In this document: positions 4,473 to 25,482 of the stretch, in pieces
Position numbering within the stretch: the stretch's first letter is position 1
Layout of the letters: the number at the start of each line of letters is the position of its first letter
Assembly (NCBI GenBank): GCA_009602725.1
Contig: WELB01000025.1
Coordinates: forward strand, 95,745-122,369
Origin: Spirogloea muscicola
Taxonomy: Eukaryota; Streptophyta; Zygnematophyceae; Spirogloeales; Spirogloeaceae
DNA: 26,625 nt
Reading direction: 5' to 3'
Notes under the pieces: model-generated
What the model saw: the letters and a program-made list of their open reading frames with translations, nothing else
What the model was told of the DNA's origin: nothing
Database searches by the model: none
Program-made: the position numbers and the translations under genes

Positions 4473-4556
4473 AAAGAAGTGCCACTCCCAATGGGGGCAA
4501 GGGCTGTGAAAAGCCAGCCCGAACAAGAATTGACAAAGGGTCGAAGGGGCCAAATG
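4473..4556 (-). repeat. Hairpin-core dispersed repeat, minus orientation, well preserved
   Basis: This is a near-complete reverse-complement copy of the unit at 15811-15892. It carries the GGCCCCTTCGA-like leader, the AATTCTT tract, the hairpin core (4501-4520 on the + strand reads GGGCTGTGAAAAGCCAGCCC) and the CCCCCATTGGGAG tail. It shows that the family occurs in both orientations. Confidence 0.75.
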
Positions 4557-4686
4557 ATGGAGGGGCCTAAAAAGCGCTAAGCAGCTACGAAGGGGCCTGA
4601 AGATGCTATGGCTCAAACGACTCCTCACCGTTGAGTACGCTTCCAACACCCCCCTTTCAGGGGGCACTTCTTCTTTCAGGGGGTTT

Positions 4687-5270
4687 GGGCTGGCTTTTTC
4701 CAGCCCCCTATCCTCAATGGGCGAGCCCTTCATGTAAGGGGCCTTTGTTCAGTCTCCCTGTCTCTCTGACCTGAGGCTGCTTAGCAGGGGTTACTGAGTG
4801 CTTCGTAGCTGCTTCGTTGCTTTTTTGAGGATAGGGAGCAAGCGCGGCCAGATTAACTGGTGGCTGGGAGAGGCCAGCCCCAAAAGAATGGACAAGGTCT
4901 GAAGGAGTCGGAGTGCTAAGGACTGAGACAGCAGTAAGCGAACTCTCAGTAACCTCTCGTTAGTAGATGCAAATCTGAGTAGCTAGCAGGCGGAAAGACG
5001 TCACCCTGACGGGGTGCTCGTTGTTCTTTGTACTTCCCCTGGCCCCTTCTCGTCCTTTGTTCATTCTTTTTTGGGCTGGCTTTTTCCAGCACCTATCCTC
5101 AATGGGCGAGCCCTTCATCATTTGTTCCTGTCAGACCCTGTCCATTCCTTTGGGCTGGCCTCTCACAGCCATTGCTGTCAATTTGGAGGAGCTCTTCTAG
5201 TACCTAGCTTTTTGCGCCATCCGGCTTCTTCAGCCCTTGTCCATTCCTTTGGGCTTGCCTCTCACAGCTA
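4687..5270. repeat. Cluster of hairpin-core repeat copies
   Basis: Cores occur on the + strand at 4687-4706, 5073-5090, 5152-5170 and 5251-5269, and in reverse at 4862-4880. The first two share the same tail (CCTATCCTCAATGGGCGAGC), so they form a subfamily. A perfect CCCCC-TTTCA-GGGGG hairpin lies just upstream, at about 4649-4664. A further reverse core lies at 5370-5387, outside this span. Confidence 0.7.
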
Positions 5271-5646
5271 CCAGTCAATTTGGAAGCTCTGTTATCTTGT
5301 TTTTCAACATCGCTGCTCTTGGCCACAAATAGGCAGCAAAGTTGAGGAGGAGGTACTCGGCACACAGATGGCTGTGAAAGGCAGCCCAACAAAGATTGGA
5401 GTGACTGAGGAAGACATCTCCATCACTTGACCAAGGAGAGAGCTGTTGTGAGAAGCATCTGCGTGCCGGTCGCGCCCTGGCTGCAGCCTCTGGCTATGGA
5501 TCTGCTACCCGGAGACCAACATCTCTGAGTTGCGGCTGCCTAATTGGCTATATCTCAGAGCATCCATAGGACCCAAGCTTGCACTCACGAGACTGACAAA
5601 GAGCAGCGAACTACAGATGACTATCGACTTACTAGGCAGCCAAAGC

Positions 5647-5667
5647 ACCACTGAGCACCTCAGTGGT
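5647..5667. repeat. Perfect 9-bp inverted repeat with 3-nt loop upstream of ENGase
   Basis: ACCACTGAG, then CAC, then CTCAGTGGT. The arms are perfectly complementary and lie about 125 bp upstream of the ENGase ATG. It could be a dimeric protein-binding site or a hairpin in the 5' UTR; nothing in the sequence decides between these, and chance is possible. Confidence 0.45.
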
Positions 5668-5791
5668 CATGCAAGCCAGTGGGGCTGCAGGCGGCTGCCA
5701 GTATACATTCCCAGCAGACTTAGGAGGCCTTGGATGACTGGTATGCCAGTGCTTTGATACCGATGGTCTCGGCGATCCAAGGCATTGCGCG

Positions 5792-8700
5792 ATGGCCGCG
5801 GTGCCGGCAGCAGCGCACGAGCCGCCATTCGAGCCAGCAGCGGCACCGCTGAGGACCCTGCAGGACCTCCTGAGCTGGGCGCCGGGCGAGTCGCGCTCGG
5901 ACGCCTTCGTCAGAGGGTCGATAATGCCAGAAGCTCCATGCGGCTCCGGAATGGCGGCCGCGGAGGCTGCGCGACCCAGGCTGCTGGTGTGCCACGACCT
6001 GCGCGGCGGGTACACCGAAGACGCCGAGGCCCAGGGCGGCGCGCTCGGCAGCAACGCCTTCCGCCTGTGGGACTGGGACCTCGTCGACACGTTCGTGTAC
6101 TTCAGCCACGAGCTGGTGACGATACCGCCGCCCGGCTGGATCAACGCAGCGCACTTACACGGCACTCAGGTGCTTGAGCTGGGCAATCGCCAAGTCAGGC
6201 CTTGGTGCTCAGAGTCGACATCCCATGCTTTTGGCTGACTCAGGAGTCCGGCACCTGGGGCTCAGAACTACTTAGCAGCAAACCAGGGCTTTGGGCTGCT
6301 TGGTCAAGCGCTCAGCGCCAAACGTTTCGTTTGGGTTGCGAGCCTTAGAGCCTTAATTCCCATCAGATTGTTGACGTCGGCAGGTACTGGGAACGTTCAT
6401 CACCGAGTGGGAGGCAGGAGCAGTGCTGTGCGGCGCCCTGCTCGCATCGCCCACCACAGTGCGGGCCGCCGCTGCCCAGCTGGCCTCCATTGCAGACTAC
6501 TACGGCTTCGATGGCTGGCTGGTGAGGCTTGCCCATGCCCAACCCCTTACTAGTCTCTAGTCAGAAGAACTGGGCAGACGCCGTCGTTACCTCGCACACG
6601 AGCTGATCTTTGTGGGTTCAATTCAAGTGTGCATGTCAATGAGCCCTGAGTCAGACTATAGCAGCGATGAATGCAGAATGTAGAATGCTATCGTCACAGT
6701 GAGTGGTTCCTGCATCTGGATGTACTTGGTGCGACCAATGTCATGCAATGCTGTAGGTGAACATTGAGAACAAGGTGGACAGTGGCCAAGTGCCGCTGCT
6801 GATAGACTTCGTCGCAGCACTGAACGCGGAGATGCACCGATGCCGGGAGGGCTCGCTGATCATCTGGTACACGACCTCTTTCAGCACGCTGCTAGAAGTC
6901 GGCATGGCTGCCTCTAGATAGTCTGAAGATGCAAGAAGGAAGTCTCACAAACTGCATCAGCGTGCACGTACAGTCGTACATGAGTACATGGTGTCTTTGA
7001 CTCACGACTGACAAGCAGCTGGTGCGCAGGTACGACAGTGTCACCGAGGATGGCCGACTGCAGTGGCAGGACGGTCTGACCGACAAGAATTCCTGCTTCT
7101 TTGCAGCTGCAGATGGAATCTTCACCAACTATTGTTGGAAAGTAAGTGCATTTGCTGCAAGCCTTGCTTCAGTGCTGAATTGTTACCTGCTCTGTCATTG
7201 CATCTGGACAATCAAGCAGTCATTCAATGACTTGCATCTGGCAGCAGTCAGTCCCTTGCACTAACAGTCTTTGAGCATGACCATGACTAGGAAGGGGTTC
7301 CAAAGCAATGTGCACAAGCCGCTGGAGCCCGCCACCTAGACATCTTCATGGGCATTGATGTATATGGACGGGGCACATATGGTGGCGGGGGTTACCAGGT
7401 CAGCGCCCATGTCCTGTGGCACACCCTCACTAGTGTGCTCTGATCAAAGCCACGTCTTGCTTAAGTCGGGCTCTGTGACTGAGTACAAGGTGTTATCATC
7501 CCTGTTCTGGCCTTTGTACCTTTTTCAAAGTGCAAGCATGGGTAATGTGTACTATCTCATTGTGTGGCTAACCAGTGCGACTTAGCTGTGCGGGAAGCCT
7601 TTGCTGCTGGTACCTCCGTGGCTCTTTTTGGTCCTGCGTGGCCGTATGAGAACGAGCAGGAACTACCGTACGAGGCTGCACAATTGCGGTAGGCCATACT
7701 CCTGCCTCTTACATAGCAGATTCAGGTACATTGTGGTCATTCATGCCTCGGTATATCAAGGAGGCTTCGGCGTGCCCATGCCACACCACAGACGATGTTG
7801 TACCGTGCTGTGCGGAGTCAATGGTGGACCGCAGCTTTTGGGATCTCATAAGGAAAATCTGGACAAGCCGGCGGCCTCTCCCGCGGACTCTGCCATTGTA
7901 CTCCACCTTCGATCAGGTGATCCGCATGATCTGATCCCTTCATGTCATGGATGACACAGCTCTGCATAACATGTCTGATGTGGATGCAAATGCTGTGAGC
8001 TCTTACACAGCTTAATTGTCCAGTTTCTGAGTGCTGTTGCACTTAGAATGGCTAGTAGTGAAACTGAAGGCAGTATGAGGGTATGCTTGCGTGCCCTTAG
8101 GGCTGCGGGGAGGCCATCTTCATAGGAGGCTTCCAGGTCTCAGGACTCCCATGGAACAACCTCTCCCTGCAAAGCTTGCAGGTCAGTGTCTCGAGCTTTT
8201 TGTAGGTGGACGAGCTGGCTTTCAGTAACTGACTGCACTCAGCAACACTTTGTTATAAGTTGTTTGGATAGACGAGGTTTGGCTCATGCGATTGATTGCA
8301 TGAGATGCGGCTGACTCCTGGCGTGGTGCAGCCGCTTCACCACTCGCAGCACGTTGCTCTTGATGACGGGCTTAGGCTGACGGCATCTGTCGAGTATGTA
8401 TGCCAACCAGTAGTGGATTGTTTGCAAGGAATGCTTGTGTCAGTTCTGGTATTGGTCTTTCAGGTGGGCCGCCTGCTTAATCCGAGTATTCCTGGATGAG
8501 CATCCAGTCCCTGTCTTCAGTCTGAGCAATGAGACCAGGTGAATTATAGGACTTGCCTCATCCTTCACCTTGCAGCTCGTCTTCAGCATATGATGGTGGC
8601 TCTAGCTACCTCATCACTGGCAATCTGGCAGTGGAGCATCAGGCTAGTGTTGACATCTTCCAACCCAACATTCTCCTTATGGACATGGAGCACCTTCACG

Positions 8701-9851
8701 TGTCCTACTCGGTAAGCCAGTCACTTGGCTTTGTAGTTCGACTACGCCCATGCTTGCTGTGAACATTATTATTCCCATATTCACTCAGAGGGTCATTCTG
8801 CGTCTCAGTTGTGCCGCTCATTACCTTGAGTATTTCGATTGATGGTTCTGACAAGAGACTGCAATCCTTGTCTCTACTTGAGCAGGTCTTTACTGAGGAC
8901 AGACATAGTAATGTCAGCCTTGGTTTGACTTTCAGCAACATGGCTGCTGGCATCTCATCAACCTCGCTCTATCCGTCCCCCTGTCATAACCAGCTCCATG
9001 GGTCCCAAGTGCGAGCTGTCAAGCAGCACCCCATTTCGATGCCAGACAAGTTTCTGAGTGCTACAGAGGGCGCGCTCTCAGCATTGCTGGCAGGATGCTC
9101 TCTGATCAATACGCATGCAGGAGGCTGGACTACGAGAACGTTTGTTGGCAAGCTTCCAGAAAGTGTGCGCCTGATGCGTGTCAGTGCGCTGTGCTATCGG
9201 GAAGGAACCACCAGTCAGATGCTGCTGGATCATAGCACCCTGGGGCTTCTGACATCTGCACCAGTCAAGGCATCGCTCGGACAAGCCCCTGTGCCACCTG
9301 ATGATAAAGCTCGCTTACAGCGTGAGTCACAGCTCACCATTAGTGGGCCTAAGACATCTCAGGCCAAGGATCCTGGAGCACCAAGGCCCTATCAAGTGCT
9401 TGGACCCACTAGTACAGGTGTGGAACCAATGCCTGAGGGCTACATCGTCCGGATTGGCCACATCAGGATCGCGACGCACTCCGAGAGTGACTGCGCTGGG
9501 AACATTGAGATCACAAACTTTAGATGCCAAGATGTGGACATGAGCAGTAATGGATGTCACCTTGGCATCTCGCTAGCCTGGGACATCAGCTACAACACCT
9601 GCAGCCCACAACGCAGCAGGTCTGTGTGCCCAATTCACAATCAGCACATGTTCGCTTCTATTTCTGGTGGACCTCTGCAATGGATTGGCGCAGCAAAGCC
9701 CGCTTGTTTCCGGGCAAATCTGGATCTACCCTCCACGGTTGAAGGGGTCAATTTTCGCATGATAGCAACAACAGCCTGTGGGGCTCGCCTTGGAATTGAC
9801 ATACCATTAGAAGTATACTGGAAGGCAGAAAGGACAGCAGTACTTGATTGA
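5792..9851 (+). CDS. Cytosolic endo-beta-N-acetylglucosaminidase (GH85 ENGase), 12 exons
   Basis: Hydrolyses the chitobiose core GlcNAc-GlcNAc bond of free or misfolded-glycoprotein N-glycans in the cytosol. Proposed exons: 5792-6169, 6384-6521, 6757-6866, 7030-7141, 7291-7398, 7576-7688, 7835-7916, 8101-8181, 8332-8393, 8464-8538, 8576-8711, 8886-9851. All phases agree and give about 786 residues. Seen in order: PRLLVCHDLRGGY, DTFVYFSHELVTIPPPGW, VLGTFITEWEAG, then GFDGWLVNIENK holding the GH85 catalytic Asn/Glu pair (about N174 and E176), WYDSVTEDGRLQWQ, GIFTNYCWK, MGIDVYGRGT and LFGPAWPYE. The C-terminal accessory region (GGWTTRTF, VSALCY, EGVNFRMI) follows the plant enzyme. No signal peptide is seen, as expected for the cytosolic form. 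The start at 5792 is the first ATG of the open frame. The acceptors at 7835 and 8886 were chosen by phase and family alignment. Confidence 0.92.
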
Positions 9852-10282
9852 AACTTGGATCCAAGCACAAGCAGGGGGGATCGACTTATTCATTAGCTAT
9901 ACCAGCAAACACAATAAAAATGTCGTTCACGAGAGGTCCAACCAATATTTATGCAGTATGTTATTTTAGAATATGAGAGGTGCCAATTGCTTCCAAATGT
10001 AGCTATAGCCTGATTGAAGGGGCCTCATGTATAGCTAGAGATTGATCAGAGTCGGCCCACGTACTGGCTATAAACAGAATGTATACAGCTGAGGTACACA
10101 ATGCTCAATGCAATGTGCGAGCCCGCAGCACAACAGTGCAGAAACGAATGTTCTCCAGATCCTGAATCTGCAAGCCTGTGTACATCGGTCTGGAGGACGA
10201 TGCAGTGTCGAACTCAAGAATCTGTACAAGTGCTGCCGGAAGCGCCATGACCATAAGGAAGCCCATGCCTGGGTCTGAGTAT
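9852..10282. other. Intergenic region between convergent ENGase and hydroxylase genes
   Basis: This AT-rich 431-bp spacer separates the 3' ends of two convergent genes. It holds an AATAAA at 9913-9918. No repeat-family copy and no gene are seen. Confidence 0.7.
9913..9918 (+). terminator. Candidate polyadenylation signal of ENGase
   Basis: A canonical AATAAA lies 62 nt after the ENGase stop codon, in AT-rich sequence. The position fits cleavage shortly downstream, but no transcript evidence is available here. Confidence 0.4.
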
Positions 10283-11432
10283 CTATTTAGATGCACACCA
10301 GGGCTGCACGGGCTTGCGCAAGAAGGCCTGCCGGCGGGTTGGGACGAGGCGGTGCGTGGCACGGTATGTGCCAGCGAGGTGATCCCACCATGTGAAGTAG
10401 AGCGAGCGATTGAAGCGCGGATCTATGTGGTGGATGAAGTGGTCGGCGCTCTCCTGTGCGCCCGGCGTGAGTAGCACGCCGGCGCTGAGCGGCACCCACA
10501 GCCACACCGGGAGGTCGTATCCAGAGTGGCCCATGACATTGACAGCCGCGACTGGCCCCAACGTGGCGAGCAGTGACACGGGGTTCCAGCTCGGCCGCGC
10601 ATACTGAAGCGCCAGCACCGCAGCGTAGAAGGCTGACCAGTCCAGCAGGAACTCCACCGCCTCTGCATACGACGGCCCCGCTTCAGTGGGCAGGAAATGG
10701 ACAGGGAGAGACGCAACAATCGCGGCAATCAGTAGTGCGACACAGGCTGACGGGATTCCGACAGGCGCTGATTACCAGCGTAGGCGGTGCCCCAAGCATT
10801 GAGGTCGGCAGTTGCCTCGTGGTGCCGTTGGTGCAACGCCGCATACGCCACCTTGTAGCGGTGCATCAATGTGTGCAGAGCAAAGAACCACGCATCGTGC
10901 GCAACCATGGTGGCCCACACAAACGGCCAGATCGACGCCGGGTTGAAGTCTGGCGCCGCACGCGCCAGGAGGCCTCGGCGGCAAGCAGCCGCGCCGAGCA
11001 GCAGTGGGAAGTGGGACCCAGCAACAGAGCAGAAGTTCTGCCACCGGGGCCCCATCACCTGCGCCACACGTCGTCACGGATGTCAGCCCTCCACCGTGTC
11101 CGCCACATCGGTGCAGTAATGATTCATCAGAACGTTACAGTCTCAGCCAAGTTAATAATAGTCAGGTGGCAGACCTTGAAAGGCACAGAGGGTGCAAATC
11201 GCCGGACGAGGCTGCGGCGCTCAAGCCAGCAGAGGCCGTGGAAGCCCGCATACTCCACGAAGAACTGGCCGATGGCCAGGGCGGCACTCATCGCTGTGGC
11301 GAGCGCCAGGCATGTCAGGAGCTCGGCGAGGCCGCCCGTGGGCTGTGCACTTGGCACGCCGGCTGCCAGCAGGCCCACGCCCGCAGTCCTGTGCAAGCCT
11401 TTGTCCAATGGCACATGCAGAGCTGTCTCCAT
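10283..11432 (-). CDS. Fatty acid hydroxylase / sterol desaturase superfamily protein, 3 exons
   Basis: Membrane di-iron oxygenase family. Proposed exons, read on the minus strand: 11432-11175, 11058-10776, 10680-10283, giving about 312 residues with consistent phases. The three histidine boxes that bind the iron pair are visible: HTLMH (148-152), HQRHH (162-166) and HFIHH (261-265), plus GHSGYDLP (231-238) before the last box. Hydrophobic stretches precede box 1 and lie between boxes 2 and 3, as in this integral-membrane family, usually in the ER. The start is the ATG at 11432; an in-frame stop lies about 90 nt upstream, so this is the first Met unless a further 5' exon exists. Exons 2 and 3 were joined across a 95-nt intron (10681-10775) with a pyrimidine-rich acceptor. 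The substrate (sterol, sphingolipid or alkyl chain) cannot be told from the sequence. Confidence 0.82.
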
Positions 11433-12003
11433 CGTGGCCGGGTTGCCCTGCTGCCTCGCCTGAGTGCCTTCTTCCACCAGCACTACCGGAGCTGCCGGCG
11501 CGCCGATGGGCCCCGGGGATATGCTTCAGCGCCTCCAGGCTGTGACAGGCGGGGCGGTCTGCAGCCCAATTCGGCCTGTCATGCGACAGACCTGCAGCCC
11601 ACTTCTCCTTCCCCCGGCGGTACTCGAGCCGAGCTGATCGGGGCCTCGAGGCTGCCCAGGACTGCAGTGTGGCGGACAGCGCTCTTACCCTCGGCTGGGC
11701 AGAGGCCGCAAGCGGCAAAGCCAGCAAGATTGAGATGGGGACAGGGGGGCGGACGGGGCCAAGGGCAGCAAGGCCAGGGAGGGGTGTCGGTGACGCGCTG
11801 CTGCGCTAGCGTCCACGTGGGGCGAGCGCGGCCGCAGTCGGGCTTAAGCCCCCTAGCGGCCAAGTACTGGGGGGACGCACGCCTTCGACGACTTGTGGGC
11901 TTCACAGCCGATCACCTTCTTCAGAACTTGTTCACTTGATGCCCTTTTTGGTACCATGGGGAGCAGGCGGATGCCCATGCAGCAGGCTCGCTCGCGCAGG
12001 CAT

Positions 12004-12192
12004 ATCGCATGCGCCTGTCCGTCTCGCTGGTCCATGGCACGCCCGCTGCATCTGCGTGCCGGTCGTGCCTTAGCTGCAGCCTCTGGCTCGCACAAGTCTT
12101 CCGCATGCGCCTGGCCGTATCGCTTCAACGCTCCCTTGCCCACGCCGTCCACACGCGAGCAGGCCGTGCTAAGGCGGCCGCCTCTGGGTCTC
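12004..12192. repeat. About 96-bp imperfect tandem duplication
   Basis: The block around CGCATGCGCCTG near 12006 recurs about 96 bp later near 12102, followed in each unit by related GTGCT/GTGCC and CCTCTGG segments. Part of the first unit, around the CTGCGTGCCGGTCG motif near 12052, also occurs near 5460, just upstream of the ENGase gene. Confidence 0.6.
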
Positions 12193-12199
12193 GGCGGAG

Positions 12200-12395
12200 T
12201 GCCTCTTCCCTGCAGCGAGCTACTCAGACCTGATGTTGCTCACTCGTTGGTACTGAGCTTCCCTCTGCATCGTCTCTGTGTTCTGCAGTGTGTTGTAGTG
12301 TAGTCCTTTCTCCGGCTCCTCTTTCTTTGGCTTTGGACATTGTTCATTCTTTTTCGGGCTGGCTTTGCCAGCCCCTCTTCTCTATGGGCGCGCAC
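12200..12395 (+). repeat. About 190-bp direct repeat, copy 1 (copy 2 at about 15138-15330)
   Basis: The two copies match along their length by eye, with small indels: GCCTCTTCCCTGC, GAGCTACTC, TGATGTTGCTCACTCG, GACTGAGCTTCCCTCTGCAT, TTGTAGTGTAGTCCTTT and then a hairpin-core unit. The copies lie about 2.94 kb apart in the same orientation, on either side of the tail-anchored orphan gene. Confidence 0.75.
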
Positions 12396-12420
12396 TTCTC
12401 TCTGGCTCTGGCCAGGGGAG

Positions 12421-12452
12421 CCGCTACCAGGAGACCAGTTTCTCCGACCTGC
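12421..12452 (+). repeat. Interrupted-palindrome module, copy 1
   Basis: This module runs CCGC, spacer, GGAGA, 6 nt, TCTCC, spacer, GCGG, so it can pair with itself at two levels. An essentially identical copy is at 12858-12889. In both cases CTCAACAGG and a TTTCGTAGC motif follow, so the duplicated block is about 100 bp. Degenerate relatives occur near 4770-4830 and 5513-5542. Confidence 0.65.
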
Positions 12453-12857
12453 GGCTCAACAGGGTTACTGACTATTTCGTAGCTACTTGATTCCCTGTGT
12501 GCTTTACCGCTTTCCCTGGCCCCTTTCAGCTTTGTTCATTCTTTGTTCTTTTTCTTGGGCTGGCCTCTCACACGCTTTGCACCTGCGTGCTGGCCGTGCT
12601 CTCGCTGCTGCCTCTGGCTTTCGTCAGGGGGATTGTTTTCCGCCAGCTAGTCTGTCGGATTTGAGGCTCCTCACTCGTTGTTCTTGACTGATTCATGCTT
12701 CCCTACTTCAGAGCTAACGCCTTTGGCCCCATCGTAGTTTGGCCCCGTCAATTCTTTTCGGGCTGGCTTCTCACAGCCCTTGCCCCCATCGGGAGAGCCA
12801 CTTCTTCATCTCACAGCCACCGCCCTCTCCTGGAAGCGTCCTTGTCTCTTTTTGAAG

Positions 12858-12889
12858 CCGCTACCAGGAGACCAGTTTCTCCGACCTGC
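12858..12889 (+). repeat. Interrupted-palindrome module, copy 2
   Basis: Second copy of the module at 12421-12452, with the same nested complementary arms. It is followed by the same CTCAACAGG and TTTCGTAGC sequence, with small substitutions. Confidence 0.65.
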
Positions 12890-14529
12890 GGCCGCTCAAC
12901 AGGCTTTCTGAGTGTTTCGTAGCACTAATTTCCTGTGTGTTTTAGCGCTTTATCTGGCCGCTTCGAATTATCCTCGGCATTTTCCCTGGGCTGGCCTCTC
13001 ACAGCCACCGCCCTCTCCTGGAAGCGTCGTCCTTTCTTTTTGGCCGCTTTGGACCTCCTTCTCTTCGGGCTGGCTGTCTACAGCTTGCTTCACAGCCATT
13101 ACCTTCTTCAGACCTTGTTAATTTGAGCCCTTTTTGGCCCCTTTGGACCTGATGAATATCAGCCCTTTTCGGGCTGGTTATTTACCGCTCGCCCCCTTTG
13201 GGAGAGCTATGTTCTTCGTGCATTCCTTTAGGCTGGCCACTCACAGGCACTGCCTTACATGTGAAGAGCTGTTTCGGTTGGGCTGGCCTCTCACAGCCAC
13301 TGCCTTCCTTTGCCTGAACAGTGTTGGATCGGTGGCCACCCTTCCATTCCATGCGAGCCGCGCGCCTTCTCTCCTCTTTTGAAGAGCTTCTTCTCTCGTG
13401 TACTGGCTTGCTTTGTCCTCCCTCTCATTTCACGCACGCCGTGCACCTTGTCTCGTGCTCTGCAAGTGGGATGTCCGCTTCGCCATGTCCTCTCGTGGCT
13501 TGCCTTTCACAGCAATGCCCCCTCCGGAAAGGCTTTTCTTTGGCCTTGGCCCTAAGCAGCCATCGCCACCTTCTGACAGAAGCTTCTCCCACCATTTGTG
13601 TGCCGCCTGCTGCTGTAACCACCTCGTTGGGGGGGTTTCGTCTATGGGTCATACTGGCGAACAGTGCATGTAAGAAAAATCCGTGTAACGACCAAAAAAC
13701 TGATACGGACTGGCCAAGTCCAAGCAAGAAGCAGGAAGGCACTAGAGGGGGCCGAAAGGTAAGCAAGCCAATCAAGTCCAATGTGACCAGGGATCTCAGC
13801 TTAGTTACTGCATACTTGTGCTTGGGTTTGGCGACATGTGGTCTTTGCAGACCGCATCCAGATCCGAGGACGAAGGCGGGCTTGATTGAGTGCCACACGC
13901 ATGTACACCTCTAGCAAGTCACGGCCCACCCGGCTGTGCAACCGGGGCTGGAAAGCACTGCTTCACACAGCTACATCGAACGTGTCGTCCCAGTACACAG
14001 AAAGAGGAGAAAATGGAAACACACACAATGTTGTTAGACGAGGCAACGCATTGTTCCATTGTTCCCACCACACAGCTTGCTGCAATGCCCATTTCCACAC
14101 ACTCCCGCCTCACAGGTCAGCTAAGAGTTGTTGTAAACGAGGCCGATCTCTGGATGGCACATTCCAAGCCCCTCTCACAGCTCGCCTAGCTCTGGTGCAG
14201 AGTATTGGCCTCAGCCCGCTGCAGACACACAGACATGCGGCTCGTTTGAAGAAGAGCGACGCGGTGCAAGTCCGTGTTGGCCGAAAGCACCGTTGAATAT
14301 TGTTATATGCTTAATCGGCGGGTCGGGGTGCATGACCATCCCGCCCGTCTCATTGGGCCTTGAGAGTCCCCTGGATAAGGGAGGCCTCGGGCACCCATCG
14401 GGCTTACCCCCTATATCTGAGGCCACGCGGTGCGCCCAAGCGCCCTAGCCATGGCTGCCACCCACCTTGAGTGAGGGCGGAGCCTGTGCTGTCTGACTGA
14501 CTGTCTGAGATCTGAATCTGTCTGCCGCC

Positions 14530-15018
14530 ATGAGCGCATCTGAATCTGAGCCGCTGCGACGAGGTCGATCTGCTGGGCCGCCGTCTCAACGAGGGCGATT
14601 TGCTGGACCTGTGGACAAGGGCAAACGTCCAATGGAGGAGCTCGACTGGAGGAATGCAGACTCTGAGAACGCTGTGTACAACACACAGGGACAGGTACAG
14701 GAGCAGGTACAAGAGCGCACAGCCCAGGAAGGTTCTCAAGCACATCCTCACAGCGTGCACGCCCTAGACCCTCTCGGGCAAGACGTGGAAGCGAGAATCA
14801 AGACAAGTCAGACATCGCTGGCAGCTGGTCGAGGTGACAATGCGGACAGTGAAATTAGTGCTGCAACTTCGAGTTGCTCTGGGTCAAACAAGTCAAGGAA
14901 AGGCACGTCGTCTGCAGCCAGGTTGTACACGAACTATGTCAGAAGTGCGGGGGTGTTGACGCCCCTGGGCGTCCTTGTGATGGCCATCATGTCGATTATC
15001 TCCATGTTCACATGGTAG
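14530..15018 (+). CDS. Hypothetical single-span protein with C-terminal membrane anchor
   Basis: I do not recognise this 162-residue protein. It is intronless, and its ATG sits in a good context (GCCGCCATGA). The first 125 or so residues are polar and low complexity (Ser, Arg, Gln, Glu), with no signal peptide. Residues about 126-140 are basic and small (NKSRKG, ARLYTNYVRS). The last 22 residues form a hydrophobic segment ending directly at the stop (LTPLGVLVMAIMSIISMFTW). That layout is typical of tail-anchored proteins inserted after translation into ER or organelle membranes. Repeat clusters flank the gene on both sides. The coding call rests on the continuous frame and the coherent C-terminal anchor, without a family match. 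Confidence 0.6.
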   Translation: MSASESEPLRRGRSAGPPSQRGRFAGPVDKGKRPMEELDWRNADSENAVYNTQGQVQEQVQERTAQEGSQAHPHSVHALDPLGQDVEARIKTSQTSLAAGRGDNADSEISAATSSCSGSNKSRKGTSSAARLYTNYVRSAGVLTPLGVLVMAIMSIISMFTW

Positions 15019-15137
15019 CCGCATCTTGCACTGAGCAGCCAGGGCATCACTGAGAATTTTTGAAAGCCCACCAACTTCAAGGTGGGTCCTCACCCAGGTG
15101 CTCGTCGAACTCCTCTTCGCTGGCCTTGCACAGCACC

Positions 15138-15330
15138 CGTGCCTCTTTCCCTGCCGCGAGCTACTCTGCCTTGATGTTGCTCACTCGCGGGACTGAGCTT
15201 CCCTCTGCATCATCTCGTGTTTTGTAGTGTAGTCCTTTTTCGGCACCTTTTTCTTTGGATTTGGACATTGTCCACTCTTATTTGGGCTGGCTTTGCTAGC
15301 CCCCCTTCTCTCAGGGCGAGCACTTTCTTC
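15138..15330 (+). repeat. About 190-bp direct repeat, copy 2
   Basis: Partner of the block at 12200-12395. It ends in a hairpin core at 15284-15304 (GGGCTGGCTTTGCTAGCCCC). Relative to copy 1, the hairpin arm changes from CCAGCCC to CTAGCCC, which still allows a G-U pair in RNA. Confidence 0.75.
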
Positions 15331-15357
15331 TTCTTTAGGAGAGCCTTTTCGTTTCTT

Positions 15358-15893
15358 GGGCTGGCCTCCTACAGCTACAGTCCTCGTTGGTGGAGCCAGA
15401 CGTCAAGGGTTATGCTTACTGTAGTAGCCCCTTGTTCTGCTGATTGGTTGGCATGTTTGCGTCGGGCCTTGCATCCAGACTCTGTCCATCTTCTCGGGCT
15501 TGGCCGTTCACAGCCATCGCCCCCTCGGACGAGCTTCTCTTTGAGACAGTGTCTCTGACTTACGGATAGCTTCTCCCCCCTCTTCTCCGGTGGTGAACCA
15601 CTTGTTTGTTACCAACTAACCAGTGCTTTTGTGTCGATACTTCTTTTCTGTGGACCTGGTCCGCTTCGTCTGGGCTGGCCTTGCACCACCTACCGCCTCG
15701 TTCCCGGAAAGACTCCCGGCTTCTCCATCCCTCTCAGACTAACTGGTCCATCCTCCCCCGTTCTGCCATAGCATCTTCAGGCCCCGCAGTCGCTGCTTAG
15801 CTCGTAGTTTGGCCCCTTCGAACCTTGTCAATTCTTTTCGGGCTGGCTTCTCACAGCCCTTGCCCCCATTGGGAGAGCCACTTCTTCTCAGAA
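15358..15893 (+). repeat. Hairpin-core dispersed repeats, plus orientation
   Basis: Cores occur near 15358, 15496, 15672 and 15840. The unit at 15811-15892 is the best-preserved full-length example: GGCCCCTTCGAACCTTGTC leader, AATTCTTTTC tract, hairpin core, then a TTGCCCCCATTGGGAGAGCC tail. It is the reference used here for comparing the other copies. Confidence 0.75.
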
Positions 15894-16317
15894 CGTCTCC
15901 TCCTTCCTTCTCGAGTCCTCTCTCCGAAGGTGGCCCGCGCCATCCCGCGGGCCAGGACGCCAGGTGACGCATGCAGCGGCCACCATGTGACAGTGACGCC
16001 GCCGCCGGCGGTCCCGCCGCAGACCCCCTCCCGCGCCGCCGGCGGCGGGTCAACGCCGTCGGGGGGCCCGCGGCGGCCCGCAGACGTTCGAGGCCACGCG
16101 GCGGCCCTGGGTGGCTGCCACATCGGCGCACGTGCGGGGCACGCTGACGCAAACCGCCAAGTGGCAGCCTAGACGACAGCCCGGTGCTGACGCCAGGGTG
16201 GGGGGGTGACCCGGACCGCCGGCGGGGGTGGGGTATTTGAAGGGAGCCCGCCACTTCTGGTCAGCTCCCCCCGGCCTCCTCCCCAAGCTCCCAAGCTCGC
16301 CAGCTCGCCCGCCCACC

Positions 16318-19139
16318 ATGGCCGCCTCCGGCCGCCCCGCGCCGCCGCTGCTGCTCGCCGCTGCCGCCGCCGCGCTCCTGGTGAGGCCCCCGCCCCTCCG
16401 CCGCCGAGCTCCAGCTCCCAGCTCCCAGCTCCCAGCTCCCGGAGCGCGGAGCTTGGGCCGTGCCGCCTTCTAGGTCCCGTTCTTACCACCCGCTTCTCCT
16501 GCAGGTGCTGGCGGTGGGCGAGGCGCACGCGGCGACGAGCGCCGGCGACGTCGCGGCGCTCAAGCGCTTCAAGGCGGGCATCACCTCCGACCCCGCCGGC
16601 CTGCTCAAGAACTGGACCTTCACCTCCGACCCCTGCGACTCCGGCTACTACGGCATCACCTGCAGCAGCGGCACCACCAACAGGCGCGTCACCGGTGAGA
16701 CGAGCCCGCCCACGAAGAGCTTGTGATTGAGCTTCTGTCGGCCCTTCCTAAAAGCTGAGAATTGGGCCCTCAGAAGAGCTGAATTTCAGGCTGAATGAGG
16801 GAGGCCCGCTCAGTAACCACGGGTCAGCACATAGAGGTCGCTAACTGATGCCCACAGGGGATTGGCTCAGCAGCAGGTGATGTACACTAGTCAATGTGCT
16901 TGCCTCTGTACTTGGCCACTCAGGCCCTCCGTCACTTGGTACACACTCCATCCCCTTTGTGCTCACGATTGGTTGCGATTGTCTCCGCAGCCATCTTCAT
17001 CCCAGAGCCCGGGCCCAAGGGCCCGCCCACCGGCCTACCACCCATCGTGGGCAAGCTGCTCTCCGGCGGCATCGGCCGCCTCACCGCACTCACGTCCATC
17101 ACATTCGCGTACCAGAACTTTGGCGGCAGGCTGCCTGCGGACTTGAGCGACCTCGTCCTCCTCACGGTTCGTGGCGTCTCGGTTGCACGGCAACTCTAGC
17201 TCCCAGCTCGTCGGCACCCATGAAATTGTGAAGTTATTTATGTCGCTTTGACCTTCAGCCAAATTCAACCTTCTGATTCGTGTCTCGCCTCAAGTGGCAG
17301 AATCTGGAAGCAAGCGGTGGCAACTTCACTGGCAACCTCCCCAATCTGAGCAAGCTCACACGCTTGACAACACTCGACCTTAGCCAGAACCGGCTCAGCG
17401 GCTCGCTTCCTTCCTGGCTCAACAAGCTGACCCAGCTGACACAGCTGGAGCTGTCTTCCAACCGCTTCTCAGGGAGCATCCCAGGTTCGTGCCTGCCTGC
17501 TTACATACAAATACCTTCCATTCAGGGATGTTCAGGCCGCTGTTGAGATAGGACTTGGAATAATCACAACTCATCTTGGTGCTATTCTGTTTGCACAGAC
17601 CTTAACCAGCTGAAATCCCTCGTCGTTCTCAATCTTGGCGCCAACCGCCTGTCCGGTTCCATTCCTGCAAAGCACCTGAACAGGCTACCCAGTGAGTGGT
17701 TCTATGCCTTGACGCAGTAGTGCCCCCCTTCGTCTGCCCGTGCCCTTGCTACTCAGGTCCAGTTACAGAATTGCTAATTTGCCTTCTCCATGAAGACACT
17801 GAGCCCACATCTGCCTCAAACACTTCCAACGTGGTAAGCATGTCTGATTTCTAAGCTTTCTCGACTGCTGAATCTCATGATCTTTACAATCAAGACCATT
17901 ACTTCTTGTTGCAGAGCTGCAGGTGCTTGGGCTTCAACAGAACAGGTTCACGGGCAGTTACCCAACCGCTCTGAGGGCGCTGAGCAGCGTGTCGCAGTAA
18001 GTGCAACTTGCACTGCACTTGTCACTGCACAAAAAGTTCGTACAGTGTAGATGGTTCACACTCTTATTGCTCTGCTAGAATGCTCTGCTTGAGAAACTGT
18101 TAGCAGTGGCATGACTAACACCCTTGCAGAGAAGGTTCCCAGGAGGTCTTATACCGCTAGGGGGTTGGATGCATGCAGGCTGCTGGTGGGCAGCAACAGC
18201 CTGAGCGGACTGCTCCCCAATTTGACGCTCTGCCCCAGCCTTTTCACGGTTGACCTGTCTGGCAACCGCTTCCGGGGGCCTTTCAGCACTTTATTGTTTC
18301 CCAAGAACATCAGTTCAATCGATGCCAGCTTCAATCACTTGTCTGGATCACTACCTGGGTCGCTCCTCCCGCTCCCACAGGTATTAATGCCAACAGGCTT
18401 CGATATGGCATGCAAATGCGGATGGGTTGTCTCATGTGTTCAACCTCCTGTTGTAACCATCTCTGGCACCTCAGACGTCCTGGTCGTTTGCGAGCCTCTT
18501 GACAGGTCTCATCCCTCAATCTGGCGCACAACACTCTCAGTGGGCCGCTTCCAACGGCCCTGGTTGCCACAAAGTCCCTACAGCTGCTCAACCTCTCCTC
18601 AAACAGGCTCAGCGGCCCCATCCCTCCCCTGGTCAACGAAGCGACGGCCTATCTCCAAGATAATTACTTCAATGGCACTGCTCCTGCCCTCAACGCCAGC
18701 ACCTTCCAAGTACGATAAAATGGCCTTTCTTTTTCTGCACTTGTCATTTTAACACTTCCTTGTCATGCTGTGGTAAGTGAGCGTTCTGTGATTTCGCCAG
18801 GCAAGCGCAGTAGAATCTGTTTCATGGTGAAGATCTGGACGCTGATGAATTCGGAAGACAATGTGTGCAGCTGGGCAACTTCACGCTGAACTGCCTCAGC
18901 AACTGCCCCAGCACTAAGGCGCCCTGCACGGGAGCACCTCAGGTAAAAACAACTATTCTCTGGCTACATGGCTTTGCCATCAAGCCTGATAGTAGAGCAC
19001 TTCTAAGTGCCCTGCATCTGCGTCAGATGTGCAGTTGCATAATTAAGCATCATCTCGTGGTCTTTGCCTTGTGGATGGTGTAAGTTTCACTACGCACATC
19101 TTGCTGCAGGGTATGGGTCTGAAGTGGGAAATTGATTGA
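16318..19139 (+). CDS. Secreted leucine-rich repeat protein (plant LRR type), 10 exons
   Basis: Extracellular LRR protein; such proteins bind ligands or partner receptors at the cell surface. Proposed exons: 16318-16380, 16505-16694, 16991-17166, 17301-17484, 17599-17691, 17915-17996, 18179-18380, 18506-18709, 18814-18942, 19110-19139. Phases agree and give about 450 residues. Seen: a signal peptide (hydrophobic Leu/Ala core, cleavage probably after AHA near residue 30), an LRRNT_2 cap (DVAALKRFKAGI, LLKNW, DPCDSGYYGITC), then plant-type LRRs such as LTTLDLSQNRLSGSLP, LTQLELSSNRFSGSIP and LQLLNLSSNRLSGPIP, several with N-glycosylation sequons. A Cys-rich C-terminal cap (CLSNCPS, APC) follows. 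No transmembrane segment or kinase domain is seen before the stop. The last exon is only 10 codons long and is the least certain; another 3' splice could extend the protein. Confidence 0.85.
16407..16445 (+). repeat. CAGCTCC short tandem repeat in LRR intron 1
   Basis: Several 7-bp CCAGCTC/CAGCTCC units in a row lie in the first intron of the LRR gene. This is a simple minisatellite, likely variable in length between strains. Confidence 0.7.
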
Positions 19140-19944
19140 GCACACATCCATGTCACCTGAGATACTAAGCGGCATCGTTGCATCATGTTGCAGAGGTCGG
19201 CCAAGGTTTGCACCAGCTTCTACAAGAAGAAATAGCTGAGTGAGCAAGTCATACAAGTTACTGACTTGGAGTAAGTCTAAGTTCCCGAAGCTTGCAGGCG
19301 TGCACTAAGGCCAGAGGCTCCAAATCATCCTGCTGATCCTGGCCTCTGTATCAGCTCAAACCTGCTTAAATCTGGCAGGTCGTGCCATGCACACTGAGCA
19401 CATAGGCAGTAAGACGTTATAGAGGAACAAAGTATTATGATGTCAACTGGATTGAAGCCTGCTGCATTTTCGATCAACCTCAACAATCTTTCATTCTTTA
19501 CCATGTTCACGTGAATAATCTTCTTTGTTTTTGACTCCTTGCAACACCGAGTGGGGTGCCAGTGTACCGCTTGCAAGTAGCTTGCAAGCAATCCTCAAGT
19601 ACACAGCATACAATGGTCTTCAAGCATCCACTCTCTAGCCTGAAGCCAATATGGTTGAGGGCACATTATGCAAAATAGTTGCTCGCAGGCAGAAAATCAA
19701 TCTACCCGGCAAATACATTGCCAGCCTTTCACCAATTTACTCCTCCCAAAGTCAATGATTACAATTTGCAATGTAAGTAATTTGGTCAAACTACGATGTT
19801 GTCCACATCTTCATGAGAAATTGGATATAAATATCTCGATCTGGATCATAGCCTGGCTCCCTTGGCAAGTGACAGGAAGGAACACTGCATAGCGGAGTAG
19901 CTCTCCTCCGTCACCTCCCGTCAAGTACCTGTAGTGTCATAGGT

Positions 19945-20560
19945 TCTGGTTGCCTGCGGGCCCCCATTCAAACGATTGCATTGCTCAATCAAGGCGCACA
20001 ACCTCTACGGTGCGGCACCCAGCAGCGCTGAATCTGCTAAACTTCAAGCAAATTTGCAGCCATTTGTAAAAATTCCAAACCTCCTGAAGTATACAGAGTT
20101 TGAATCTGCCGTATTTAACATTTCACCGAGCGAGTGGCTCACTATCGGACTTGAAGCGATAACCAAAAGGCACAGAATGTAAGTCTGTCGTGTTTACCAA
20201 TTCTCACCATGCGAGCCAGCACCATAACGAAAAAAACGCAATAACCGGAAATCAAAGAGCTCTTCAGAAATTGTATCTGCTATTTGTTACTTTGCCTTGC
20301 TAATTGTTACTTCGCCTCTCTTGGGCAGGTGGCTCGAAGATCCTGGAGGAGTCCAGTGCCTCCGACGAATTGCGCTGCAGGCCCATGAAGCGACAGCCTA
20401 TCCCCAGCAGAAGCTGTGTGGACCCTGTCTTTCTCATTTGCAAATTCCGGCCACTACAGACCACCTTCACTTGGGCTGGCCATTCACAGCGCCACCCTCT
20501 GCAAGGGCTTCTTCTTTGATGAGAAGAAGCGGCTCTCCCCATGGGGCAAGAGGGCTGTGA
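19945..20560 (+). CDS. Possible hypothetical gene or gene remnant, two exons
   Basis: I do not recognise this protein. A reading frame opens just after an acceptor-like TAG (GTTCTGGTTGCC follows), runs to a perfect GTAAGT donor after 20178, and continues in the correct phase from 20329, after a T-rich tract ending GGGCAG. The joined product contains IPNLLKYTEFESAVFNISPS, then MWLEDPGGVQCLRRIAL, which look protein-like. No start codon or upstream exon is clear. The last 30 or so codons lie inside the dispersed repeat at 20473 onward, so the stop at 20558-20560 may come from the insertion. It could be a truncated gene, an unfinished model or chance. Confidence 0.3.
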
Positions 20561-20608
20561 TAAGCCAGCCCAAGAAGAAATGACGAGGTTCGAAGGGGCC
20601 AAGTTTGA
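20473..20608. repeat. Head-to-head inverted pair of hairpin-core repeats
   Basis: A plus-orientation core (20473-20491, GGGCTGGCCATTCACAGC) is followed about 60 nt later by a minus-orientation unit (core 20552-20571; + strand GGGCTGTGATAAGCCAGCCC). The minus unit extends to a GGTTCGAAGGGGCC leader ending near 20600. Together they form a large imperfect palindrome that also has a small internal arm (CTTCTTCT...AGAAGAAG). Confidence 0.7.
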
Positions 20609-24868: not shown

Positions 24869-25482
24869 AGGAGGAGGCCTTCCTTTGTTGCGACAATTGA
24901 TGCCGATGTTGTAGACAGTTCAAGTGGAGCTGTTTATCATACGCGTGACGTGGTATTAGTAGACCCCCCACCCCCCGCCCCCTCCCTCCCCTTCCAGGAC
25001 AGCGTTGTGTGTTTGTACAGAGTGAATGTCTCAACCTCTTATCTTCTTCACCACTGTAAGTCTTATCAATATATGGGTAACATGGTCTGTGGGATTTCAT
25101 AAGGGCCTCCAAGTGTGCACAATATGCATCCAAGTGTGCACAACATGCAAAGGATGGCACTTCCACAGAGGCTGCCTCTGCTGTGCGAGTCCTACTTCCC
25201 TCAGCATGTTTTCGCTGTCAAAGAAACACGACCACCTTACTCGAAGTGCGTTGATTACAGTGGCAGGGCCTGCCTTCTGAGCTGGCCAATCCAAAACCTG
25301 AAATCTCCCGGAAGAATAGCCATCACAGTTAAAATGCCGTTTCTTGAGGCTCTGCTCAGTACACGACGTGAGCATTCAATGAAGCTCGAGTATGACGTGG
25401 CGTCTGGTAATTAGCAATATGTACAAGTTCGTATCGTCTAACTACTCTGAGCACCAACAGTGCGAGGCAGAGTACTGCAGCA
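24869..25482. other. Intergenic region between convergent accA and RING genes
   Basis: It contains the 3' ends of two convergent genes. A C-rich polypyrimidine tract is at 24964-24998. Two direct copies of a 21-bp unit starting CCAAGTGTGCACAA lie at 25109-25149. No gene is seen; ORFs on both strands are short and unlike known proteins. Confidence 0.65.

Follow-up and report, generated by a model that had tools for sequence, protein, structure and literature searches.

Satellite DNA in dispersed form has reportedly been the subject of a study in Tribolium. Satellite families that are partly dispersed in euchromatin are well described (PMC10048060), and in Drosophila virilis the foldback element Tetris carries 220-bp repeats (TIR-220) that became satellite arrays (PMC4079207). 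The organelles of Volvox carteri harbour short palindromic repeats (14-79 nt in the plastid, with stems of 5-29 nt), some of which have nuclear copies, many of these being degenerate in their stems (PMC2670323). The mitochondrial genome of Lobosphaera incisa contains LIMP, a pentanucleotide palindrome, as well as other dispersed repeats, and these families are virtually absent from the nucleus (PMC4524435). Finally, unclassified repeats make up 3.0% of the Coccomyxa elongata genome (PMC11797067). 

In the present study, we analysed a family of repeats in one window, i.e. the whole 26.6-kb stretch of DNA under study, which constitutes the evidence base for this family. Its main unit, called H, is about 80 bp long, lies in four intergenic clusters (A to D) and is accompanied by two upstream modules, U0 and HL. 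We favour, with a probability of roughly 0.6, the reading that these clusters are a decayed non-coding selfish repeat that was amplified in tandem and whose H part was also dispersed between gaps. Like dispersed satellite DNA as depicted in the excerpt of PMC10048060, the H family comprises tandem and scattered units outside heterochromatin, in non-coding DNA; it differs in that its array is single, tiny and old, in that one module spread alone, and in that its abundance is taken from one window only. Tetris and TIR-220 resemble the composite repeat in combining repeats of ~220 bp within a modular element with satellite-like arrays (excerpt of PMC4079207), whereas H has no convincing terminal inverted repeats and the host is unrelated. 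The Volvox carteri repeats, according to the excerpt of PMC2670323, are comparable in size class, in their non-coding location, in occurring in a green alga, as the host of H probably is, and in having many stem-degenerate nuclear copies, but the H stem measures 6-8 bp within an 80-bp unit and the H locus looks nuclear. Several intergenic dispersed families, some of them hairpin-forming, are likewise found in Lobosphaera incisa (excerpt of PMC4524435); those repeats are mitochondrial, and H differs from them in compartment and structure.

The window has the appearance of eukaryotic nuclear DNA, with many short introns; its gene set and intron style suggest a green alga as the host. Gene bounds were drawn by eye from open frames, and Pfam was run on ten frames, four of which gave no match. 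Two putative genes rely on Pfam matches below the cut-off, one YegS_C-like (lipid kinase-like) and located within the first 3.5 kb, the other fatty-acid hydroxylase-like and located at 10.3-11.6 kb (minus strand). A predicted GH85 glycosidase gene extends from 5.8 to ~9.85 kb, with a Pfam match in its first exon only, and an LRR gene (16.3-19.2 kb) and an acetyl-CoA carboxylase alpha gene (21.3-24.9 kb) were delineated from open frames together with Pfam.

H copies were retrieved by iterated nhmmer searches using positions 15808-15890 as seed, which gave 10 matches including the seed at the first pass and 24 at the fifth. The window also served to train the final profile, which makes the first pass the more independent of the two results. 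Scored with this profile, 22 of the 24 matches in the window reached at least 11 bits; the controls (the reversed sequence and dinucleotide shuffles, 50 of the window and 50 of its intergenic DNA) yielded no match at this level, their highest score being 10.1 bits. The H repeat family is thus real. Its 22 matches (18 on the plus strand and 4 on the minus strand) are all intergenic, fall in four of the six gaps, and are distributed as seven in cluster A (4.4-5.4 kb), nine in cluster B (12.3-13.5 kb), four in cluster C (15.2-15.9 kb) and two in cluster D (20.4-20.6 kb). No match lay inside the genes of the window as bounded by eye from open frames and Pfam matches; as the 22 copies fall in four clusters, i.e. 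effectively four events, this restriction to intergenic DNA is suggestive only.

These results agree with most of what a preliminary description of this DNA had put forward, namely about 20 copies in both orientations, their positions (4.4-5.4, 12.3-13.5, 15.2-15.9 and 20.5 kb), their absence from exons and introns (with bounds drawn by eye) and a unit of this length made of a leader, a T-rich tract, a core and a tail. The accompanying U0 and HL modules had been overlooked. The statement that the repeat fills the intergenic space was too strong: H covers 1,589 of the 9,580 intergenic bases (~17%), a coverage that rises to 2,267 bases when U0 and HL are included.

The top-scoring H copy lies at 15808-15889 (+, 67.7 bits). 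It has one near relative in each of the other clusters, i.e. 4474-4554 (-, 93% over 81 columns), 20520-20602 (-, 88% over 83 columns) and 12723-12807 (+, 98% over 61 columns, with a gap of 10 in the leader). The remaining copies of cluster A are at 4651-4733 (+, 27.8 bits) and 5040-5119 (+, 46.6 bits), both with a CTTTTT loop, 4841-4911 (-, 48.9 bits), 5121-5198 (+, 45.6 bits), 5220-5292 (+, 44.0 bits) and 5358-5416 (-, 17.3 bits, core only). Cluster B further contains, all on the plus strand, copies at 12327-12399 (CTTTG loop, 38.9 bits), 12517-12575 (devoid of tail, 26.2 bits), 12955-13032 (34.4 bits), 13041-13110 (27.5 bits), 13134-13216 (36.1 bits), 13214-13271 (32.8 bits), 13272-13314 (truncated, 23.6 bits) and 13472-13533 (weak, 11.9 bits). 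In cluster C, three more plus-strand copies were found at 15256-15329 (CTTTG loop, 34.9 bits), 15333-15399 (27.7 bits) and 15465-15541 (29.8 bits). The second copy of cluster D (20447-20516, +, 18.4 bits) is a core placed tail-to-tail with 20520-20602, and this isolated inverted pair (20447-20602) stands ~4.6 kb from the nearest other H copy.

Profile searches of the window revealed eight copies of U0 upstream of H and, upstream of U0, three good copies and one weak copy of HL, the order of modules being HL-U0-spacer-H. U0 was found on the plus strand at 12182-12256 (54.5 bits), 12400-12471 (56.5 bits), 12612-12687 (54.3 bits), 12854-12911 (39.8 bits), 15139-15196 (33.4 bits), 4733-4797 (43.5 bits) and 5488-5546 (39.0 bits, with no downstream H), and on the minus strand at 4946-5011 (48.4 bits). 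Six of the eight copies lie 35-71 bp upstream of a same-strand H, and those at 12400 and 4733 directly follow an H unit, forming recurrent H-U0 junctions. HL occupies 12039-12088 (47.2 bits), 12570-12619 (43.1 bits), 5452-5495 (42.6 bits) and, weakly, 12151-12187 (13.1 bits), all on the plus strand.

With a composite profile 192 positions long, 23 matches were obtained, i.e. six near full length, two starting from position 68-69, 13 restricted to the H side and two restricted to the U0 side. Four of the six near-full-length matches are U0-spacer-H units arranged head to tail in one array (12192-13034, +) with starts 211-232 bp apart, i.e. tandem monomers as in a satellite, and this array was also seen as a self-match of 407 columns at 62%. 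Of the 18 pairs of neighbouring H copies, taken in either orientation, eight had a start-to-start spacing of 58-99 bp and seven one of 177-232 bp. Neighbours were in like orientation in 13 of 18 pairs over all clusters, which is not beyond chance (permutation p 0.43), so that the case for a tandem origin is built on cluster B and on spacing. TRF at score 40 reported no array within the repeat clusters, as would be expected of an old array only. A stretch of 200 columns, longer than the H unit, is also common to 12199-12397 and 15139-15325 (82%), in two intergenic gaps.

Thirteen matches to the best H copy start at 15808-15811 in five cases, end at 15885-15890 in seven and do both in four; one begins further out (15797), another ends further out (15899) and the rest are shorter. 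Since these matches share start and end positions, the H unit recurs with about the same ends. The four close copies, one per cluster, are 81-98% alike over their matched parts and their flanks mostly differ, apart from 37 bp upstream that the 15808 and 4474 copies share at 89%. Among 20 H copies, related flanks were found in 10 of 190 pairs upstream and 17 of 190 downstream, against 0.19 expected, an excess partly explained by flanks that consist of a further repeat unit.

Mean identity between H copies was 0.607 within clusters (56 pairs) and 0.606 between clusters (154 pairs; label permutation p 0.46), so that concerted evolution, under which neighbours are more alike, was not apparent in mean identity. 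A young, locally homogenised satellite is accordingly disfavoured. As mean similarity is no higher within clusters than between them, H probably moved between loci. In a tree built from 21 copies, with three weak ones excluded, no branch is firmly supported; the branch of the 15808 copy has zero length, and its relatives surround it. This tree groups cluster A to some extent (4 changes versus a shuffled mean of 6.0, with 19 of 500 shuffles giving a value as low), which is suggestive of a degree of local copying or conversion; for all clusters, 9 changes were counted versus 10.9 after shuffling (as low in 22 of 200). Taken together, equal identities within and between clusters and the grouping of cluster A point to exchange between loci with some local copying.

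Under the favoured reading, the longest recurring form would be an HL-U0-spacer-H unit of ~190-250 bp, amplified locally in tandem in steps of ~180-230 bp for the whole unit and ~60-100 bp for H alone. The 80-bp H part would also have spread between intergenic gaps in both orientations, the latest round presumably being that of the subfamily represented once per cluster. Spread may have been neutral or selfish, insertions in genes presumably having been lost, and could have proceeded by duplication through unequal exchange or template switching, with occasional mobilisation or gene conversion. With a family dispersed in both orientations, a non-coding selfish element stays the likeliest class, in line with the earlier proposal of spread as a non-autonomous element. 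H itself is an unclassified intergenic repeat, which we did not file as a satellite, MITE, SINE or Helitron.

The main rival, which we nevertheless consider unlikely, identifies H with the conserved 3' end of a LINE- or SINE-like retroposon spread by target-primed reverse transcription; H-only copies would be 5'-truncated and the 3' hairpin would be recognised by the reverse transcriptase. The H part is kept in 21 of the 23 composite matches, only two being devoid of it, and the 5' part is absent from 13 of the 23, which start no earlier than position 103 of 192 and have the 3' side in common. Truncation from the 5' side would produce this pattern of graded loss together with a preserved 3' end. 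Against this, 6 of these 13 starts cluster at 103-112 rather than being spread, and the poorly kept spacer may simply halt local matches. Words of at least 5 bases were shared by both flanks in 6 of 12 copies versus 30% of crossed pairs, a comparison of low power that gives a weak hint of target duplications and whose excess we take as noise at such a sample size; the mean longest common word was 4.33 in the 12 copies versus 4.28 in 132 crossed pairs. Precise target-site duplications, to which the preliminary description had looked, were thus not recovered. Neither an A nor a B consensus box of Pol III promoters was present on either strand of the 12 copies, and no poly-A tail was seen by eye. 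A tRNA-derived SINE had been considered on account of an antisense GGTTCGA, B-box-like in appearance, in two copies, and was rejected for want of a complete B box and of an A box. Pfam detected no domain at cut-off and no reverse transcriptase in nine open frames of clusters B and C. One open frame built of repeat units (13134-13379, +) gave a sub-threshold zf-RVT match (E 0.056) that is probably due to chance.

Less probable still is an origin of H as a non-autonomous DNA transposon (MITE, foldback or Helitron-like) that was incorporated into tandem arrays afterwards. This reading would be consistent with the recurring ends of the 80-bp unit, with its four close copies, one per gap and in both orientations, and with the inverted tail-to-tail pair of cluster D; tandem arrays can arise from foldback elements, as reported for Tetris (PMC4079207). 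However, the score for terminal inverted repeats was ordinary in four of five copies (0.64-0.73 of shuffles as high) and reached 0.044 in only one, only 3 of 12 copies contained the Helitron CTRR motif within their last 22 bases, and at differing places, and target duplications were wanting, so that MITE and Helitron were both rejected on their ends. The frequent relatedness of H flanks is also unlike simple independent insertion. A long shot, in our opinion, is that an 80-bp H unit devoid of inverted ends, clear target duplications, coding capacity and a Pol III promoter follows an undescribed route of spreading between algal nuclear intergenic sites, alone or with a 110-170 bp upstream part, satellite and interspersed element being combined in one family.

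We consider it very improbable that the H core serves as a functional hairpin, in RNA or DNA, under selection, e.g. a processing or regulatory signal, as had been proposed from the sequence. A GGGCTG/CAGCCC stem is possible in most copies, and one-sided G-U changes are present. The stem alignment comprised 24 copies, including the weak ones at 15655, 13480 and 4130 (reverse) and omitting a half copy at 12809. Over its six pairs, 84.6% of cells held standard pairs, and pairing fell to 20-68% when partners were slid by 1-3 columns; this drop favours a stem, yet is expected because the stem was read from these very copies. Shuffled partners paired equally well (83.6%, with 133 of 500 shuffles as high), and a compensatory double change was found in a single cell, so that covariation of the stem, for which the preliminary description had suggested a test, did not exceed the background. 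The covariation score was higher with partners slid by +1 to +3 (0.129-0.189) than with the true partners (0.126), and lower with slides of -1 to -3. The outermost pair is lost in 9 of the 24 copies, the G being retained in 8 of those 9. Mean column conservation was 0.96 in the left arm, 0.79 in the right arm and 0.78 in the loop; the earlier impression that the stem is better kept than the loop does not hold overall, the right arm being no better conserved. The left motif GGGCTGGC thus appears to be kept as a word and not as a stem half, bearing in mind that the search itself favours copies that keep GGGCTGGC. RNAalifold retained three pairs, one with a double change in one sequence, and seven single folds (one antisense) gave ordinary z-scores of -0.09 to -1.97, the lowest being that of the CTTTG-loop copy at 15256, with a stem of 8 bp. 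A functional hairpin was rejected on the basis of RNAalifold, pair counts and single folds, and the hairpin is most likely incidental. An RNA-structure screen could nonetheless take this repeat, with its 6-bp stem, for a functional hairpin. Remnants of a decayed protein-coding gene family or of a larger transposon are scarcely credible and were set aside: the U0 block reads by eye as a similar peptide in some copies, but gap lengths between copies are not multiples of three and the nine scanned frames hold no Pfam family at cut-off.

Relatives of the repeats were sought in several collections. Rfam gave no match in the repeats at E up to 1, and viral contigs matched neither of two core patterns that overlap each other, nor a U0 pattern. 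One core pattern had 14 single matches in bacterial and archaeal genome contigs, where ~15 are expected by chance (hand estimate, 17.5 specified bases in 257 Gb). Positions 12040-13320 had no match in phages, and 15740-15900 none in plasmids. None of the viral, bacterial/archaeal, phage and plasmid collections is a fair place for an algal nuclear repeat. The absence of a known matching family, noted earlier, is borne out in these collections and in Rfam, which include no eukaryotic repeat library. Among the papers listed by a literature search, nothing was recognised as the H family, which is no proof of its absence from print. The family is probably unnamed, but it is ordinary, and it is absent from the libraries searched; as a modular intergenic repeat missing from them, it amounts to a naming gap and not to a new principle.

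Three neighbouring features were also observed. A tRNA-Val (TAC) prediction of 84 nt (20134-20217, -) lies 230 bp from the isolated H pair; the Rfam tRNA match (20136-20216) scored 30.7 bits versus a cut-off of 29, and the prediction could be an intron-bearing gene or a degraded copy. Between two repeat clusters, an open frame of 162 aa (14530-15018, +), with no Pfam match and a C-terminal end that is hydrophobic as judged by eye, is possibly the gene of a small tail-anchored protein. Downstream of the carboxylase gene, positions 25108-25149 hold a 21-bp tandem duplication (two copies, 95%).
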